Source: an uncultured Planctomycetaceae bacterium
GTDB lineage: Bacteria; Planctomycetota; Planctomycetia; Planctomycetales; Planctomycetaceae
Length of the DNA stretch: 64,000 bases
NCBI GenBank assembly: GCA_937916515.1
Contig: CALFSX010000062.1
Coordinates: forward strand, 61,406 to 125,405
Reading direction: 5' to 3'
The position numbers were made by a program, and so were the translations under genes. Under the pieces are notes generated by a model. That model was not told the origin of the DNA, searched no databases, and worked only from the letters and a program-made list of their open reading frames with translations. This document shows, piece by piece, positions 18,991-41,508 of this stretch. The number at the start of each line of letters is the position of its first letter. Within the stretch, counting starts at the first letter, position 1.

Positions 18991-19872
18991 ATGACTGAAT
19001 GGACATCTCAGCTGCACAAATGGATCAGACTGTGTTGCGTCGCAGAAGTGAGCGCAGCAAAGCCCGGGAACGTATCGTTCTCTCAATGTTTCATTGACGT
19101 TGCAGCGGAAGACTTCCTGCGTTCTGCAGACGCGATTGCTCCTGTTATTTCGCAAGTGAATAAATGCGGAATTGGTGAGACGATTTTCCTGGCTGTTCAG
19201 GCAACTCAGGCCGCTGTTCACAGCAATACGAATCTGGGAATCGTGCTGTTGCTGACACCAATGGTCGCCGTATCTGCAAGTCATTCGTTGGCTGATGGAA
19301 TCGAAGACGTTTTGCGAACGCTGACAGTTGACGATGCCGTGTGGGTTTACAAGGCGATCGGCTTGGCGGCTCCTGGCGGGCTTGGCAAGTCGGCTAGTCA
19401 GGATGTCTTTGATGTGCCAACAATGGATCTTCGTGCGTGCATGCAGTTGGCAGCCGATCGCGATCTGATTGCCGCTCAGTACACCAATGGCTTCGTTGAC
19501 GTATTGCAGACCGGTTGTCGTTTGCTGCAGCAGTCTGGAGACTGGCGCAAGCTGGCGGATTTTCGTCTGGCATGGTTGGCTTTGAATCTCATGGCGGAAT
19601 TCGGAGATTCACTTATTCAACGCAAGTGCGGCGACGAAATGAATCGTTTGGTCTCAACGAAAGCTCGCCACGTGCTGGAATGCGGTTGGCCTTTTACCGC
19701 AGGAACTCAGGCGATTTACGACGAATTCGACAGCTTTCTGCGAGCGGACGGAAATCGCAGAAATCCTGGTACAACGGCCGACATGATTGCCGCAATTCTG
19801 TTCGCTTCACTACGTGAGGGAATTTGCACTTATGATGAGTCAGGAAATACGTTGATGTTTTCCGCCGACTGA
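18991..19872 (+). CDS. Triphosphoribosyl-dephospho-CoA synthase family (CitG-like) protein
   Basis: EVSAAKPGNVSFSQCF, NTNLGIVLLLTPM, AAPGGLGKSASQDV. Confidence 0.8.
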   Translation: MTEWTSQLHKWIRLCCVAEVSAAKPGNVSFSQCFIDVAAEDFLRSADAIAPVISQVNKCGIGETIFLAVQATQAAVHSNTNLGIVLLLTPMVAVSASHSLADGIEDVLRTLTVDDAVWVYKAIGLAAPGGLGKSASQDVFDVPTMDLRACMQLAADRDLIAAQYTNGFVDVLQTGCRLLQQSGDWRKLADFRLAWLALNLMAEFGDSLIQRKCGDEMNRLVSTKARHVLECGWPFTAGTQAIYDEFDSFLRADGNRRNPGTTADMIAAILFASLREGICTYDESGNTLMFSAD

Positions 19873-30118: not shown

Positions 30119-33100
30119 CTAAAATCGAGATCCTGATTGCTTGCAGATCTGCTCAACTAAGGCCGAAAAAGACTTTACGGCGGCCAATTGTGATTCAAGT
30201 TGATCCAGCGGCAGTGGAGAATTGTGGACGGCTTCCATTCTTTTGACCAACTGAGCGTAGTCTGCCGAATCCTGCGGCGGAATGGTCAGGTCTTTGGCGT
30301 TTCCGCGAGCCATTCTCAGACAGTCGATCAATTCACGCAGAAATACATACGCCGTCGTTGCCGAATCGCATTCCTGTTGTGACAGAAGTCCTTCTTTACG
30401 AGCGGCGGCGATTGCCTTCAGAGTGTTGGTTGTTTGCAGTGAGCTCAGCCGTTTTCCAAACGTCAGTTGTAATGCCTGAGCTGCGTATTCGCAGTCAACA
30501 AGTGCTCCATCGCTGAGTTTTGCATTGATGGTTCCTCCATGAACCAGCTGTCGAATTTGCTTTTCACGCATGCCTCTCATAGCGTCAAAGTCAAAGCCGG
30601 AATCCGTGTAGACGATGTCTTTGCATGCTTGATCAACCTCACGGCTGAACGCGGCATCTCCACTGACGCATCTTAGCTTAACCAGCGACTGGCGTTCATA
30701 CGGCCAGGCGTCGCCATCCGGTGCGAAGTAGCTTTTCAGTGAATTCAGAGAAACAGCGGGTGACCCCGCCTGCCCGTATGGTCTCATTCGCAGATCAATT
30801 GCGAAGATGCCCTTATGACGGCATTTAATGATGTCGGTAACTCGAGCGATCATGCGTTCAAAGAAATGGCTGGCAGTCATGGCCGAGTTTGAATCCGTCC
30901 GGCATTCTTCCTGAAAGACCAGAAACATTTCAATGTCTGATGCGAATCCCATTTCGACTCCGCCAAACTTTCCTAAAGCGACGATGGTGAATGGGCAAGT
31001 GGTACCGTCTGCAAGTTTGGGTACTCCGTGTGCGTCCCGCAGTTCAGCAAAGGCGATTTGGCAGGCCGCATCCACAATGACTTCTGCCAATTCTGTGATC
31101 TCGTCAGAAAACGTGCCGAACGGTCCGCAGTGGCCTAACACGTGTCGAAGGTCTGTTCTGAACAGTTGCAGATCTTTAAATGTATTCAACGCCTTCACTT
31201 GTTTTGCCGGTGTCTTTGCGGCTTTCAGAATTTCCGAAAGTTCGCTGTGAAATTCGCTGCGTGTGATGCGGTTTTGCAGCTGTTCGGGGTCGGTTAGTAG
31301 CGGCAAGAGTTTTTCCGAACGAACCTGCAAAAAATCTTCCCACAGGTGACGGCTGATTCCCAGCACCTGCGCGACGGCTCTAAGAACTTCGGGCTGTTTC
31401 AGATTGGCGACGTTGGATTCCCACTGTGACTTTCGCAGTAGTGTATGTAACAGATCTCGGAAACGCAGTAACGCCTGGTGAGGATCGTTGTTGGATGGCA
31501 GCCAGTTGGTGAATTGTTTAATCAGTACTACGGCTGTACGCAATTCTTCGATGCGTTCTTTGCTGCTGACAACGCCGCCATCAGATTCGGCCACGTGCAG
31601 GATGTCCTGAATGCGACCATTGGTTTGCCCCAGTTGTGCTCGCAGAATTCTGAAGCCGCAAATGGAAAGAGCGTTGGCCAGTTCGAAGAAGAATCCAAAA
31701 CTGTCGTCGGCAGAAATCCGCAGCACGGTTGCTCCATCGTCTTCGCGCTGAGTTACCTCAATGGATAGATCCGCCAATGGGCTGGGGGCAGCTTTCAGAT
31801 TTGCAACGCGGCGACAAAACATATCCAACACCGTGGCTCGAACATCCGACGACTTGTCGGTTTGTTGCATGTTTAACAGACGCTCCAGTTCCGACTGAAT
31901 AACGGCAGCTGTTGTTCTTGCACTGGTGGATTCGTTGCTGGACGTATCTTCGCACAGAAAAATTCCCAGAAAGCGATCAGGCGCAATTTCGCCTCCGAAG
32001 CGATTGGGACCTGCACCGTTGTTGCAATCGCCTTCTCTGATGTCCAGAAAATTGGCAAAAAAGACGCCGCAAATCATAGACGTCAGCCCAGGGGTTTCCG
32101 GGACTGCGATTGTCAGCAACTGCAGCCTGCTGTTGCTTCCCAGACTCTGCCCGTGAACACAGCATCTGGCACCTCGCTGCAGTTCACTGAACATTGAGTT
32201 CCGTAGTGCTTCGTGTTCTGCAAAGTGATCGCGGAAGTAAGTTGCAAGTTCCGAATGCTCAATCGTTGCCACTTCCAGCTGCGATTGCGATTGGGGGTTC
32301 GTTTCGGGAAGTTCAACGTTTGAATCTCCCCGAAACTGAGCGTCAAAGATTTTGCGGACGGCTCTACGATGTGCGTCAAAACGATTCAGCAGATCAGCTT
32401 CGCTGGGGTAGTCCATTCTTCTGGCCAGCCATTCTCGCTGTTCTGAGTTGTCCGGTAGTTCGTGTGTTTGTTGGTTGTGCAGCAGCTGCAAAGCGTGCTC
32501 AATCGTTCGCAGAAAAATATAGCCTTCGCGAAGTTGCCGATAGATGGATACGTCGATGAGTCCGAAGTCTGCAAGGCGCACAAGAGCATCCAGTGTGTTG
32601 GCACTGGCAACTCGCGGTTCTTCGCTTCCGTGAATCAGCTGCAATGCCTGAACCAGAAATTCGATGTCGCGAATTGACCCGGATCCCAGTTTCACTTCGG
32701 AAGCCAGTTTGCCACGTCGTCGCAGGCGATCTTCGATCTGTCCTTTCATGTTGACAACATTGGCGATGACGTCTTCTTTGCGAACAGCGAACAATAAGGG
32801 GGGAAGCCGCTGCAGTAGATCGTTTCCGGTTGGCATGTCGCCCGCGACGATTCGAGCCTTCAGCAGGGCCTGTTTTTCCCAAAGTTTCGCGTCGGTTTTT
32901 AGATAGTGTTCGTAGCTGTCGGGAGTCGTTGCCAAAGGTCCCGCATCGCCCCATGGTCGCAGTCTCATATCAACGCGATACAGGAAACCGGTGGCCATGT
33001 TTTCGCTAAGTCCATCAATCAGGCCGCGGGCGACCTGCTTTAGCTTTGGCGCGTCACTGTTTTTTGCAACAAGAATCAGGTCGATGTCGGAACTGTAGTT

Positions 33101-33811
33101 AAGTTCTTCGCCTCCGTGTTTGCCCAGAGCAAGCACGGCAAATGGGGCTTCAGTAATTCCGGAATCTTCGCATGCAATTCGCAGGCAGAGTTGAACCATG
33201 GCATCCGCCAGAAGAGAAATCTGCAATGTCACAAATTTCAAGTCCAGAAGTCCGAATGCGTCGCACATGCCAATGCGAAGGATTTCACGACGTTGAAAAC
33301 AGCGCAAAGTCGACAGTTTTGTTTCTGAAGTTGTGAGATCCTGAATGGCGGTCGTTGCTTCATTAACGAAGTCCTCACGAGACTTCATTTCTGCGGTGCG
33401 GCGTTCGAAGGTTAGTTCTCGTAGTACGTCTGGTTGATTGAGTAGTGCCTGAGTTAAAAACGGACTGCCGCAGGAAATTCGAGCCAGCACTTCCAGCGAT
33501 CGGGGGGCTTCTTCGAACAAAGCAAACGCCGATGTGGCACTGGAGCACTTTGCAACAAAACGGTCAACGGCGTCCAGCACAACGCTGGGACTGGGGGCTT
33601 CCAGCAGGATGCGTTTTAAAGTTTGAAACCAGGCAGGTGTCGATTGCGGGCGAGGTTGCTTTTGGTCGGCGTCGTACTGCACAGACGCTTCACGCAAACG
33701 CATCAGGTTTTGGATGGCCGATTCTGTATCTGAAAATCCAGCGTCCGACAGCGAACGGCAGTTCTGGTCAAATTCAGCCGGCACAAGTTTGTGGAATGGT
33801 GGAAACATCAT
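30119..33811 (-). CDS. glnE: Bifunctional glutamine synthetase adenylyltransferase/deadenylase with ACT-like linker insertion
   Basis: Two nucleotidyltransferase cores (ALGKHGGEELNYSSDIDLILV; ALGKFGGVEMGFASDIEMFLVF), DMRLRPWGDAGPLA and DLRMRPYGQAGSPA; 1230 aa with about 230 aa of extra linker. Confidence 0.93.
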   Translation of the reverse strand: MMFPPFHKLVPAEFDQNCRSLSDAGFSDTESAIQNLMRLREASVQYDADQKQPRPQSTPAWFQTLKRILLEAPSPSVVLDAVDRFVAKCSSATSAFALFEEAPRSLEVLARISCGSPFLTQALLNQPDVLRELTFERRTAEMKSREDFVNEATTAIQDLTTSETKLSTLRCFQRREILRIGMCDAFGLLDLKFVTLQISLLADAMVQLCLRIACEDSGITEAPFAVLALGKHGGEELNYSSDIDLILVAKNSDAPKLKQVARGLIDGLSENMATGFLYRVDMRLRPWGDAGPLATTPDSYEHYLKTDAKLWEKQALLKARIVAGDMPTGNDLLQRLPPLLFAVRKEDVIANVVNMKGQIEDRLRRRGKLASEVKLGSGSIRDIEFLVQALQLIHGSEEPRVASANTLDALVRLADFGLIDVSIYRQLREGYIFLRTIEHALQLLHNQQTHELPDNSEQREWLARRMDYPSEADLLNRFDAHRRAVRKIFDAQFRGDSNVELPETNPQSQSQLEVATIEHSELATYFRDHFAEHEALRNSMFSELQRGARCCVHGQSLGSNSRLQLLTIAVPETPGLTSMICGVFFANFLDIREGDCNNGAGPNRFGGEIAPDRFLGIFLCEDTSSNESTSARTTAAVIQSELERLLNMQQTDKSSDVRATVLDMFCRRVANLKAAPSPLADLSIEVTQREDDGATVLRISADDSFGFFFELANALSICGFRILRAQLGQTNGRIQDILHVAESDGGVVSSKERIEELRTAVVLIKQFTNWLPSNNDPHQALLRFRDLLHTLLRKSQWESNVANLKQPEVLRAVAQVLGISRHLWEDFLQVRSEKLLPLLTDPEQLQNRITRSEFHSELSEILKAAKTPAKQVKALNTFKDLQLFRTDLRHVLGHCGPFGTFSDEITELAEVIVDAACQIAFAELRDAHGVPKLADGTTCPFTIVALGKFGGVEMGFASDIEMFLVFQEECRTDSNSAMTASHFFERMIARVTDIIKCRHKGIFAIDLRMRPYGQAGSPAVSLNSLKSYFAPDGDAWPYERQSLVKLRCVSGDAAFSREVDQACKDIVYTDSGFDFDAMRGMREKQIRQLVHGGTINAKLSDGALVDCEYAAQALQLTFGKRLSSLQTTNTLKAIAAARKEGLLSQQECDSATTAYVFLRELIDCLRMARGNAKDLTIPPQDSADYAQLVKRMEAVHNSPLPLDQLESQLAAVKSFSALVEQICKQSGSRF

Positions 33812-38066: not shown

Positions 38067-39191
38067 TTACGGAGCTGGTGGTGGTGGCGGTGGAGTACTT
38101 CCAAACGCAGGTTGAAGCTGCGGAACCTGACCAGCTGCCAGCCATCCGGCCATTCCGTTTGTCCAGACCATCGTGTCGGGCTTTACTTCGCCGGATGCAA
38201 TGCCTGTCGCAATTTGTTGCGGGTTGAATGGCCCCTGAGTTTGCCCGTTAACGGCAACATGCCACATTGTCATTTGAGGCGGTGGCGGTGGTGGAGCCAT
38301 TCCGGCGTTTCCCATTCCTGGAGTGCCACCCATCATGCCCGGTTGCATCATGCGTCCGGCCATGGCGAATCCCATGCCCATGCCCATGCCTTCAGCCGCA
38401 CCTCCACCATTGGGGTTTTCGGCGGCGGCGGTCATGGCCTGTCCCATCTGGTACTGCTGGAACTTATTCATGTCTCCGATCACCCCGATGCTTGTCCGAG
38501 TGTCCAGAGCTTTTTCGACTGTTTCCGGTAGAGAAATGTTGACGATAAACAGTTGAGGAATTTCCAGACCGTATTCGTCATCAATACGTTCCTGCACTTC
38601 CTTTCGTAGTGTTTCGCCGAACTCTCGATACTTGCTGGCAAGGTCAAGTGCCGCCACATTTGAAGTGGCAATGACTTCTGCGAATGTGCTGATGATGATT
38701 GATCGCAGCAATTCCGTCACTTCGTCAGCATCGACAACCTTGTCTGTTCCGACAAGTTCTTCCAGCAATGCTTTCGGTTGCACGGCTTTTAGTGCATACG
38801 TGCCAAACGCGCGAATTCGAATCGGGCCAAACTCCGGGTCGCGAAGCATGATTGGATTCGGAGTTCCCCATTTCAGGTCTGTGATTTGTTTTGTGCTGAC
38901 AAAATAAACTTCAGCTCGGAATGGGCTGTTGAAGCCGTATTTCCAGCCTGCGATGGTGCTGAGAATCGGAAGGTTGTCTGTTTTAAGTTCGTAATGGCCT
39001 GGTTCGAATACGTCAGCGATCTGGCCGCGATGGACGAAAACTGCAGTCTGTCCCGGACGAACGATTAACTGAGCTCCGTTCTTGATTTCGTTCTGGTAGC
39101 GAGGAAATCGCCAGACCAGAGCATGTCGCGAATCGTCGACCCATTCGATAATGTCGACTAACTCATTCCGCAGTTTTTCGAACAAACCCAT
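38067..39191 (-). CDS. SPFH domain protein with C-terminal GYF_2-like domain
   Basis: MGLFEKLRNELVDIIEWVDDSRHALVWRFPRYQNEIKNGAQLIVRPGQTAVFV; C-terminal WHVAVNGQTQGPFNPQQIATGIASGEVKPDTMVWTNGMAGWLAAGQVPQL. Confidence 0.82.
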   Translation of the reverse strand: MGLFEKLRNELVDIIEWVDDSRHALVWRFPRYQNEIKNGAQLIVRPGQTAVFVHRGQIADVFEPGHYELKTDNLPILSTIAGWKYGFNSPFRAEVYFVSTKQITDLKWGTPNPIMLRDPEFGPIRIRAFGTYALKAVQPKALLEELVGTDKVVDADEVTELLRSIIISTFAEVIATSNVAALDLASKYREFGETLRKEVQERIDDEYGLEIPQLFIVNISLPETVEKALDTRTSIGVIGDMNKFQQYQMGQAMTAAAENPNGGGAAEGMGMGMGFAMAGRMMQPGMMGGTPGMGNAGMAPPPPPPQMTMWHVAVNGQTQGPFNPQQIATGIASGEVKPDTMVWTNGMAGWLAAGQVPQLQPAFGSTPPPPPPAP

Positions 39192-39648
39192 TATCAGATA
39201 CTCCGGCGTCTCAAGGAAAATCAAAATCACACGAGGCCATGCCCCATCTCATTTAACTCAGCCGCTGACGTAGACGACTTAAGCGTTCATGAAAATTCGC
39301 CTAAACGTCAGCAAGTTTACTTCATTCAAAAAGATCAACCAGTCAGATTGCCCTGTTCTGTTGTGGGTATCTGATGGCGACCTGTTGATGATGAATCGAC
39401 TGCCAGGTTGAGGGAGTGCTGGATTTTTTCAAACTAATAGCGAAAACCAACAGCAAACAAGGCAATTCAGCCGCCTTTTGGGGGCGTTGAACACCCTTGA
39501 CGATGGTTTTCGCTTGATCGTAAAGTGAACGAAATCAATTCGCGTCCGGATCAGGAAAGTTGTCGAGCGAAGCGGAAGTTCGTCTTTTTTTTGTGACTCT
39601 GGATTTGATCGCGGGATGCTGATCGTTTTGGCTGAATCCAGTTCACTG

Positions 39649-41508
39649 CTAATTCTCTGTTGCCCAGCTCGGATCCGGCGCGTGGAAGGTGCGCAATTCG
39701 CCGTTCATGTCGTGCAATGAAATTGTTGATGCGTGCAGACACATGACAGGTTCGTCAATGGTAAGCGAGCGGTTGCTTCCCGTTTCGCCGTTGGGCAGAT
39801 AGGCCGGATCGCCGACAATTGGCAGGCCAAGATGCCACAGATGTAGCCTGATCTGATTTGTTCTGCCTGTGAGTGGCGTAACTTTTAGTAGCGTCGAACC
39901 ATCTGCCAAAGTTCGGACAACTTCAAACTTTGTATGCGATTCCAGCCCGTTTTCATCGTCGACCAAACGAAGTCCGTTTTCTGCTGGAGTTGCGGAAATG
40001 GGGGCCGTGCATTCAAAACTCGATTGTGCAGGAGTCGCAGCAACTCGGGCAAGGTAGGTTTTGCTGACGGTTCGCTTTTCGAACTGAGGCTGGATAATTC
40101 TGGCCACTTTTCGTTTGCGGCACATGACCAGCACACCGGACGTATTGGCGTCCAGTCGATGCACAAGCAGCGGGGCTTCTGGTCGATAGGTTTCGTTAAT
40201 TATGTACTGCAATGTGTTGCGGTTAAATCGTCCTGATGCATGCAGCGGCAGCGGTGCAGGCTTGTTGACGACGATGAATTGATCGTCATCAAAAATCACT
40301 TCGATGCTGCCGTTCACATCTGGCTCGACGGTTCCGGGCAGAAGGTTTTCAAACCGTTCGCCCCCCCGAACGACTCGTTCCGGCGATAAAGGCACAGCTT
40401 CAACGGGCGATGTCATTCGACGTTTGCGACGACCATATCGTTGGCCGGGCACAATCTCGCAATCCTGAATCTTTCTTTGCCATTCTTCCTGAGGCACCTG
40501 AGGGTGCCACCCAGACAGAAAAGAAAGCAGCGAAAGTCCGTCGAACTTTTGCGGCACATTTAACGGTCGCTTATTGAAATACGGAATGCTGCCCGGCAGT
40601 GGACTGACCAGTGACTGTATCTGCGCATTGCGAAGTTTCAGTCGATCCTGCATCTGCTGATCTGGTTCGCGATAACAACGTGGGCATGAAATTCCGGGGA
40701 CGTATTTTTCGGACGATTGACTTTCCGGCGAAACAACTTCCTGGCAGATAAAACACTGAGTGTGTTCTGTTTCGTTCAGCTTGGGGTCCACCGCAACACG
40801 TTGGTCAAAGACAAAGCAGTCTCCTGTATAGTGATCGCCGCCGCAGTCTTCGAAGTACTTCAAAATTCCACCTTCAAGCTGATACACCTGTTTGAAGCCG
40901 GCTTGCTCCATGTACGGTCCCGCCTTTTCGCAGCGGATGCCTCCTGTGCAAAACATGACAAGCGGCTCGTCCTTCATTGATTCCGGAAGCTTTGCGACTG
41001 CCTCAGGGAAATCTCGGAAATTGTCGATGCCGGCAGGGATTGCGTTGGTAAAAGTGCCCACTTCAACTTCGTAATCGTTGCGAGTATCCAGCAGGTGAAC
41101 TTTGCGGCCTTCGTCCAACCACTTTTTCAGTTCAGTGGCTGGTAGCTTCGGTGATGTGCGGTGTATTGGGTCAACACTGTCGATTCCGAATGCAATGATT
41201 TCCGATTTGATCTTGATCAACATGCGGTTAAACGGCTGATGGTCGCTGACGCTTTCCTTGGTTTCCAGATCGGTAAAGGCAGCGTCAAGATGGATCTCCT
41301 GCAGAAAGGCGTCGATAGCTTCGCGCGGCCCTGCCAGAAACAAATTGATGCCTTCCGGGCTAAGCAAAATTGTGCCTTTTAGTTGCAGGCGATCGACAAG
41401 GCTTCGCAGCTTTTCTCTGCGTTCCTGCAGATCGTCAAGCGAGACGAACTTGTAACCGGCAATGTTGATGAACTGGCAGCTGTTGGCTTCGGGGCAAATC
41501 GTAGACAT
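39649..41508 (-). CDS. Fusion of rhodanese-type tRNA uridine hydroxylase (TrhO/YceA) and RluA-family pseudouridine synthase
   Basis: N-terminal KGTILLSPEGINLFLAG, VMFCTGGIRCEKAGPYM; C-terminal VVNKPAPLPLHASGRF...LLVHRLDANTSGVLVMCR and GRTNQIRLHLWHLG. Confidence 0.9.
   Translation of the reverse strand: MSTICPEANSCQFINIAGYKFVSLDDLQERREKLRSLVDRLQLKGTILLSPEGINLFLAGPREAIDAFLQEIHLDAAFTDLETKESVSDHQPFNRMLIKIKSEIIAFGIDSVDPIHRTSPKLPATELKKWLDEGRKVHLLDTRNDYEVEVGTFTNAIPAGIDNFRDFPEAVAKLPESMKDEPLVMFCTGGIRCEKAGPYMEQAGFKQVYQLEGGILKYFEDCGGDHYTGDCFVFDQRVAVDPKLNETEHTQCFICQEVVSPESQSSEKYVPGISCPRCYREPDQQMQDRLKLRNAQIQSLVSPLPGSIPYFNKRPLNVPQKFDGLSLLSFLSGWHPQVPQEEWQRKIQDCEIVPGQRYGRRKRRMTSPVEAVPLSPERVVRGGERFENLLPGTVEPDVNGSIEVIFDDDQFIVVNKPAPLPLHASGRFNRNTLQYIINETYRPEAPLLVHRLDANTSGVLVMCRKRKVARIIQPQFEKRTVSKTYLARVAATPAQSSFECTAPISATPAENGLRLVDDENGLESHTKFEVVRTLADGSTLLKVTPLTGRTNQIRLHLWHLGLPIVGDPAYLPNGETGSNRSLTIDEPVMCLHASTISLHDMNGELRTFHAPDPSWATEN

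Follow-up and report, generated by a model that had tools for sequence, protein, structure and literature searches.

A widespread GlnE subfamily with a GlnD-type ACT pair fused to its adenylylating half in Planctomycetota and Chloroflexota

The textbook scheme for the adenylylation of glutamine synthetase (GS) is a two-cycle cascade in which GlnD senses glutamine and PII carries the message. In this classical control, GlnD reads glutamine and adjusts the uridylylation of PII, and either PII or PII-UMP then sets GlnE (PMC6316151, PMC4285133). E. coli GlnE combines a C-terminal domain that AMPylates with an N-terminal domain that deAMPylates (PMC12409994), and since this ATase itself adenylylates in a glutamine-dependent manner (PMC6316151), a ligand response by GlnE is not new; what would be new is a response mediated by a GlnD-type ACT module. 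The ACT domains of GlnD are regarded as the glutamine sensor, and the nearly invariant glycine of the ACT loop coincides with the serine site of PGDH (PMC3173338). Paired ACT domains tied to metabolic regulation also occur in IlvA, SerB2, large glutamate dehydrogenase, and plant ACR proteins, which surfaced here as Foldseek or Pfam matches; none of these, unlike the predicted enzyme described here, is a nucleotidyltransferase acting on GS. In the open-access literature, we found no paper bringing together "GlnE" and "ACT domain", and only incidental mentions of glnE with Chloroflexi or Planctomycetes, although the subfamily may be noted in subscription literature.

We analyzed a 64,000-nucleotide stretch of the genome of an uncultured Planctomycetaceae bacterium (hereafter, the window), which includes a gene whose product is predicted to be a bifunctional GS adenylyltransferase/deadenylylase with an ACT-ACT module. 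The original prediction had described a 1230-aa GlnE carrying two ACT-like stretches, and translation of the open reading frame confirmed both this length and the position of the two peptides quoted for these stretches. The features of the gene are as follows:

30119..33811, minus strand: glnE open reading frame, 1230 aa, stop codon included (NF008292 equivalog match)
32327..33619, minus strand: N-terminal nucleotidyltransferase half, AR/deadenylylase type, residues 65-495 (HMM of N halves)
33080..33124, minus strand: catalytic motif GKHGGEELNYSSDID of the N half, residues 230-244
32264..32326, minus strand: probably flexible linker, residues 496-516 (pLDDT 34-59 in the 1200-residue model)
32177..32251, minus strand: helical hairpin ahead of ACT1, residues 521-545 (AlphaFold; aligned to the pre-ACT1 helices of GlnD)
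31862..32161, minus strand: ACT domain 1, residues 551-650, loop residues E572 and G575 (AlphaFold, Foldseek)
31493..31765, minus strand: ACT domain 2, residues 683-773, loop residues D703 and G706 (AlphaFold, TIGR01693, profile-profile)
30173..31492, minus strand: C-terminal nucleotidyltransferase half, adenylylating type, residues 774-1213
30929..30973, minus strand: catalytic motif GKFGGVEMGFASDIE of the C half, residues 947-961

The protein is the only GlnE found in a search of the window genome, and scored 547.6 bits against the NCBIfam equivalog NF008292 (cut-off: 487). Met2, which is near-invariant among relatives, suggests itself as the likely translation start. Two PF03710 (GlnE) domains, each followed by PF08335 (GlnD_UR_UTase), were identified by Pfam, phmmer matched the N half to 1v4a and the C half to 3k7d, and metal-binding motifs are kept in both halves (GKHGGEELNYSSDID and GKFGGVEMGFASDIE, DMRLRP and DLRMRP). 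These paired halves and active-site motifs are shared with E. coli-type GlnE (NF008292; structures 1v4a and 3k7d), and the N half clusters with canonical GlnE N halves (support 95/92). Unlike E. coli-type GlnE, however, the window protein has about 200 extra residues, i.e., the ACT-ACT region between the halves, and its C half groups apart, in a clade whose metal motif reads D-x-E; the Glu that serves as second metal ligand in GKFGGVEMGFASDIE is typical of this ACT-linked clade. We take the C half to be the adenylylating one because it is homologous to the AMPylating C-terminal domain of E. coli GlnE. Curated NCBIfam models label GlnE proteins with this insert (ACT-GlnE) as ordinary GlnE.

The region between the two halves spans 278 aa in the window protein (residues 496-773), compared to 84 aa in E. 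coli GlnE (residues 439-522). A fold prediction had been proposed as a check, and it returned two ACT topologies (AlphaFold pLDDT 91.2, pTM 0.89), with the beta-alpha-beta-beta-alpha core predicted twice by AlphaFold and Foldseek. Both ACT-like stretches are thus ACT domains, albeit wider than first drawn (551-650 and 683-773, instead of 561-620 and 693-745). Foldseek matches in the PDB include large glutamate dehydrogenase, IlvA, SerB2, and GcvR-like regulatory ACT proteins, with loose superpositions when both domains are spanned; matches to EutL were set aside as poor superpositions from a different fold family. In the full-length model, for which the relative placement of domains is uncertain (pTM 0.59), the N half and ACT1 are separated by the sole long disordered stretch, and ACT2 continues straight into the C half with no disorder between the two.

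Pfam alone returned no ACT match for the window's own insert, and we therefore aligned 35 family members. PF01842 was matched at E<=0.1 by 25 of these (best 1.8e-8). Among relatives, L091 reached 27.9 bits for the Pfam ACT model (curated cut-off: 27) and L205 30.3 bits for PF24931 (cut-off: 27). The ACT region of the GlnD model TIGR01693 (positions 629-844) aligned to residues 523-760 of the window GlnE, for which the total score of 46.8 bits is below the GlnD cut-off of 519.4, and phmmer matched residues 681-762 to the last ACT domain of a GlnD from the same genus (E 2.8e-6). When the insert profile was compared to a profile of GlnD C-termini (1 from E. coli and 13 from the window's phylum), the match extended over 216 columns, including the pre-ACT1 helices, and was far beyond chance (probability 99.9%, E 1.9e-32). 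Overall, the whole length of the ACT pair is homologous to the ACT-ACT region at the GlnD C-terminus, so that the likeness to GlnD originally proposed for the second stretch holds, but applies to both (profile-profile, TIGR01693). The window GlnE shares with GlnD (TIGR01693) these helices and ACT-ACT domains, and unlike GlnD lacks an HD (uridylyl-removing) domain and has two GlnE-type halves.

The beta1-alpha1 loop Gly conserved in ACT domains is present in both ACT domains of the window protein. G575 in ACT1 is kept in 87 of 90 GlnE proteins, while in ACT2 the loop residue D703 is found in 90/90 GlnE and 14/14 GlnD, and G706 in 84/90 and 14/14, respectively. An insert common to all standard GlnE would have refuted the original prediction, but this is not the case: no ACT match was obtained for E. 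coli GlnE or for five canonical GlnE (1043-1153 aa) from sister families, and a Pfam scan of 3 of these 6 proteins found no ACT either.

Next, we evaluated the distribution of the insert. In a draw of 392 genomes from the phylum, it was carried by 28/28 genomes of the window's family and by seven genomes from six other families. A contig search of species genomes with the single window protein gave no match, whereas an alignment of the cassette, searched against 84,980 species genomes, did. The best 80 loci considered came from Planctomycetaceae and Chloroflexota (Anaerolineae and Ardenticatenia, including the isolate Anaerolinea thermolimosa), along with single members of Fraserbacteria and Thermoanaerobaculia, and nearly all complete proteins among them were arranged as N-ACT-ACT-C (about 1200-1300 aa). 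The tandem insertion noted in one protein is thus real but not particular to it: ACT-GlnE is a widespread subfamily found in many Planctomycetota and Chloroflexota rather than a local oddity, with the ACT pair fused to the adenylylating half.

This coupling is evident from genes in which the ACT pair and a C-type half occur without a recognizable N half, detected in six genomes of the phylum (L033, L034, L035, L087, L091, and L093). In five of these, the solo gene is the only GlnE-type domain found, and no deadenylylase half was recognizable in the genome:

L034:2842-5118 (genome G051): solo ACT-ACT-AT gene, about 4.4 kb from glnA
L091:715-3009 (genome G133): solo ACT-ACT-AT gene
L035 (genome G040), L087 (genome G093), and L093 (genome G166): solo ACT-ACT-AT genes

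A further gene, cut by a contig end, displays the permuted order ACT-ACT-C-N (L089:1-3594, genome G338). In an unrooted tree of the halves, ACT-linked C halves form a 100/100 clade found only with ACT-ACT. When the ACT modules themselves are compared, those of GlnE all fall on one side of a branch against GlnD. The ACT pair thus travels with the adenylylating C half, the unit being ACT-ACT-AT. That the C half is an unrelated paralogue was rejected as unproven, since three clades and an unrooted tree cannot place the ACT-AT clade relative to canonical C halves; the clade may have diverged from the canonical C half or may be an ancient paralogue, both of which fit the tree.

To place ACT-GlnE in its pathway, we searched for GlnD, PII, and GS genes. 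The glnD/glnB check proposed for the window genome identified a complete GlnD whose gene adjoins one for PII, another PII gene next to an ammonium-transporter-like ORF, and a GSI-beta that has the Tyr for adenylylation (motif DKDLYDLAPEE). Similarly, all 28 genomes of the family in the draw carry both ACT-GlnE and GlnD, and a constant pairing of ACT-GlnE with GlnD loss was rejected on this basis. GlnD loss is also not specific to ACT-GlnE, because some planctomycetes of the class with canonical GlnE are without GlnD as well (G036, G045, and G042).

Outside of the planctomycetes, GlnD was absent from all 28 tested Chloroflexota with ACT-GlnE (genome completeness not stated), and among the 30 non-planctomycete genomes with ACT-GlnE it exceeded the cut-off only in the Acidobacteriota member. 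Across 301 Chloroflexota, GlnD was over the cut-off in 1, with three more strong partial GlnD-like matches. PII was undetected in 15 of the 30 ACT-GlnE genomes, with only weak matches in 8. Since GS was found in 29/30, incompleteness does not easily explain these absences. In 17 of these 29 genomes, the matches to glnE and glnA lie within about 4 kb of each other. A DLY-type adenylylation motif is present in 28 of the 30 GS proteins retrieved. Five Chloroflexota PII proteins (L230-L234), from genomes with no GlnD, have a T-loop tyrosine near the Tyr51 position.

Taken together, we consider it an evenly balanced proposition that, in this GlnE subfamily, an amino acid, most probably glutamine, directly gates the adenylyltransferase. 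The protein would be laid out as an AR half and a flexible linker followed by the ACT-ACT-AT cassette. When plentiful, glutamine would bind the paired ACT domains, and the signal would pass through the ACT2 helix running straight into the AT half, favoring adenylylation, i.e., the switching-off, of type I GS; at low glutamine, the AT half would stay quiet and the AR half would remove AMP. Glutamine as the ligand, the sign of the response, and the choice of gated half are our inferences. The retained loop Asp/Gly occupy positions that are characteristic of ACT domains with a bound ligand. In the window genome, where glnD and two PII genes are present, ligand sensing within GlnE is not needed to explain control, and would come on top of the classical route rather than replace it. 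In planctomycetes, a direct glutamine input may thus be layered on the still-encoded PII/GlnD cascade.

The alternative that best survives is that the ACT pair senses nothing and is instead a structural spacer, a dimerization module, or a PII docking site replacing the central R domain of E. coli GlnE. We regard this as unlikely, but worth weighing seriously: the pair occupies the place of that central regulatory domain (PMC12409994), planctomycetes have PII, and dimerization is frequent among ACT domains. However, the loop Asp and Gly remain conserved, and the module is kept both where PII is undetected and in solo ACT-ACT-AT proteins.

Against gating by glutamine, ACT domains as a group bind a variety of amino acids, and some of them have no ligand. 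The pair could bind an amino acid other than glutamine, so that GS adenylylation would follow a different nitrogen or amino-acid signal. Foldseek neighbors include isoleucine- and serine-binding proteins, and the ACT1 loop differs at position 577 (Leu in 80/90 GlnE vs. Phe in 14/14 GlnD). In addition, the window genus is fast-evolving, with an insert only 21-30% identical to those of other genera, compared to about 40% for the whole protein, and has a Glu (E572) where ACT1 usually has Asp; because of these two properties, the ligand or function of its insert may have changed. Conversely, the GlnD module is the closest homologue, the pathway is that of glutamine synthesis, and the ACT2 loop motif is common to GlnE and GlnD, and we thus consider a non-glutamine ligand for the subfamily distinctly unlikely.

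It is also very improbable that the C half and ACT pair represent an enzyme in its own right, joined to a GlnE N half and modifying a protein other than GS. In one genome (G038, with L033 and L042), a solo ACT-ACT-AT gene does coexist with a canonical GlnE, and the AT half sits in a long-branched clade of its own, but the proximity to glnA, the adenylylation Tyr of the GSs, and the lack of any other GlnE in the window genome all argue for GS as the target. Finally, a chance ACT likeness in an ordinary expanded linker, to which the missing Pfam match for the window insert might point, is refuted by the phmmer match to a GlnD ACT domain, PF01842 in 25/35 members, TIGR01693, AlphaFold, and the profile-profile comparison.

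Replacement of the GlnD route by direct gating through glutamine is plausible for Chloroflexota alone, which lack GlnD and in which ACT-GlnE may be the main nitrogen input. We tentatively extend this to a scenario that we hold to be somewhat doubtful as a whole: in Chloroflexota without GlnD, and often without PII, GS adenylylation would be run by GlnE alone, which would carry a GlnD-type glutamine sensor, i.e., a collapsed bicyclic cascade. Planctomycetaceae would maintain the two routes side by side, and some genomes would have only ACT-ACT-AT without a deadenylylase half. If true, a large GlnE subfamily bearing the sensor module of GlnD where GlnD itself is missing would show that a single protein can take the place of the cascade, and ACT-GlnE allows a direct test of ACT gating of a nucleotidyltransferase.

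Elsewhere in the window, three other genes stood out:

39649-41508, minus strand: 619-aa fusion of a UPF0176/rhodanese (TrhO-like) protein and an RluA-type pseudouridine synthase
18991-19872, plus strand: CitG-family triphosphoribosyl-dephospho-CoA synthase-like protein
38067-39230, minus strand: SPFH/Band 7 protein with a C-terminal GYF_2 domain
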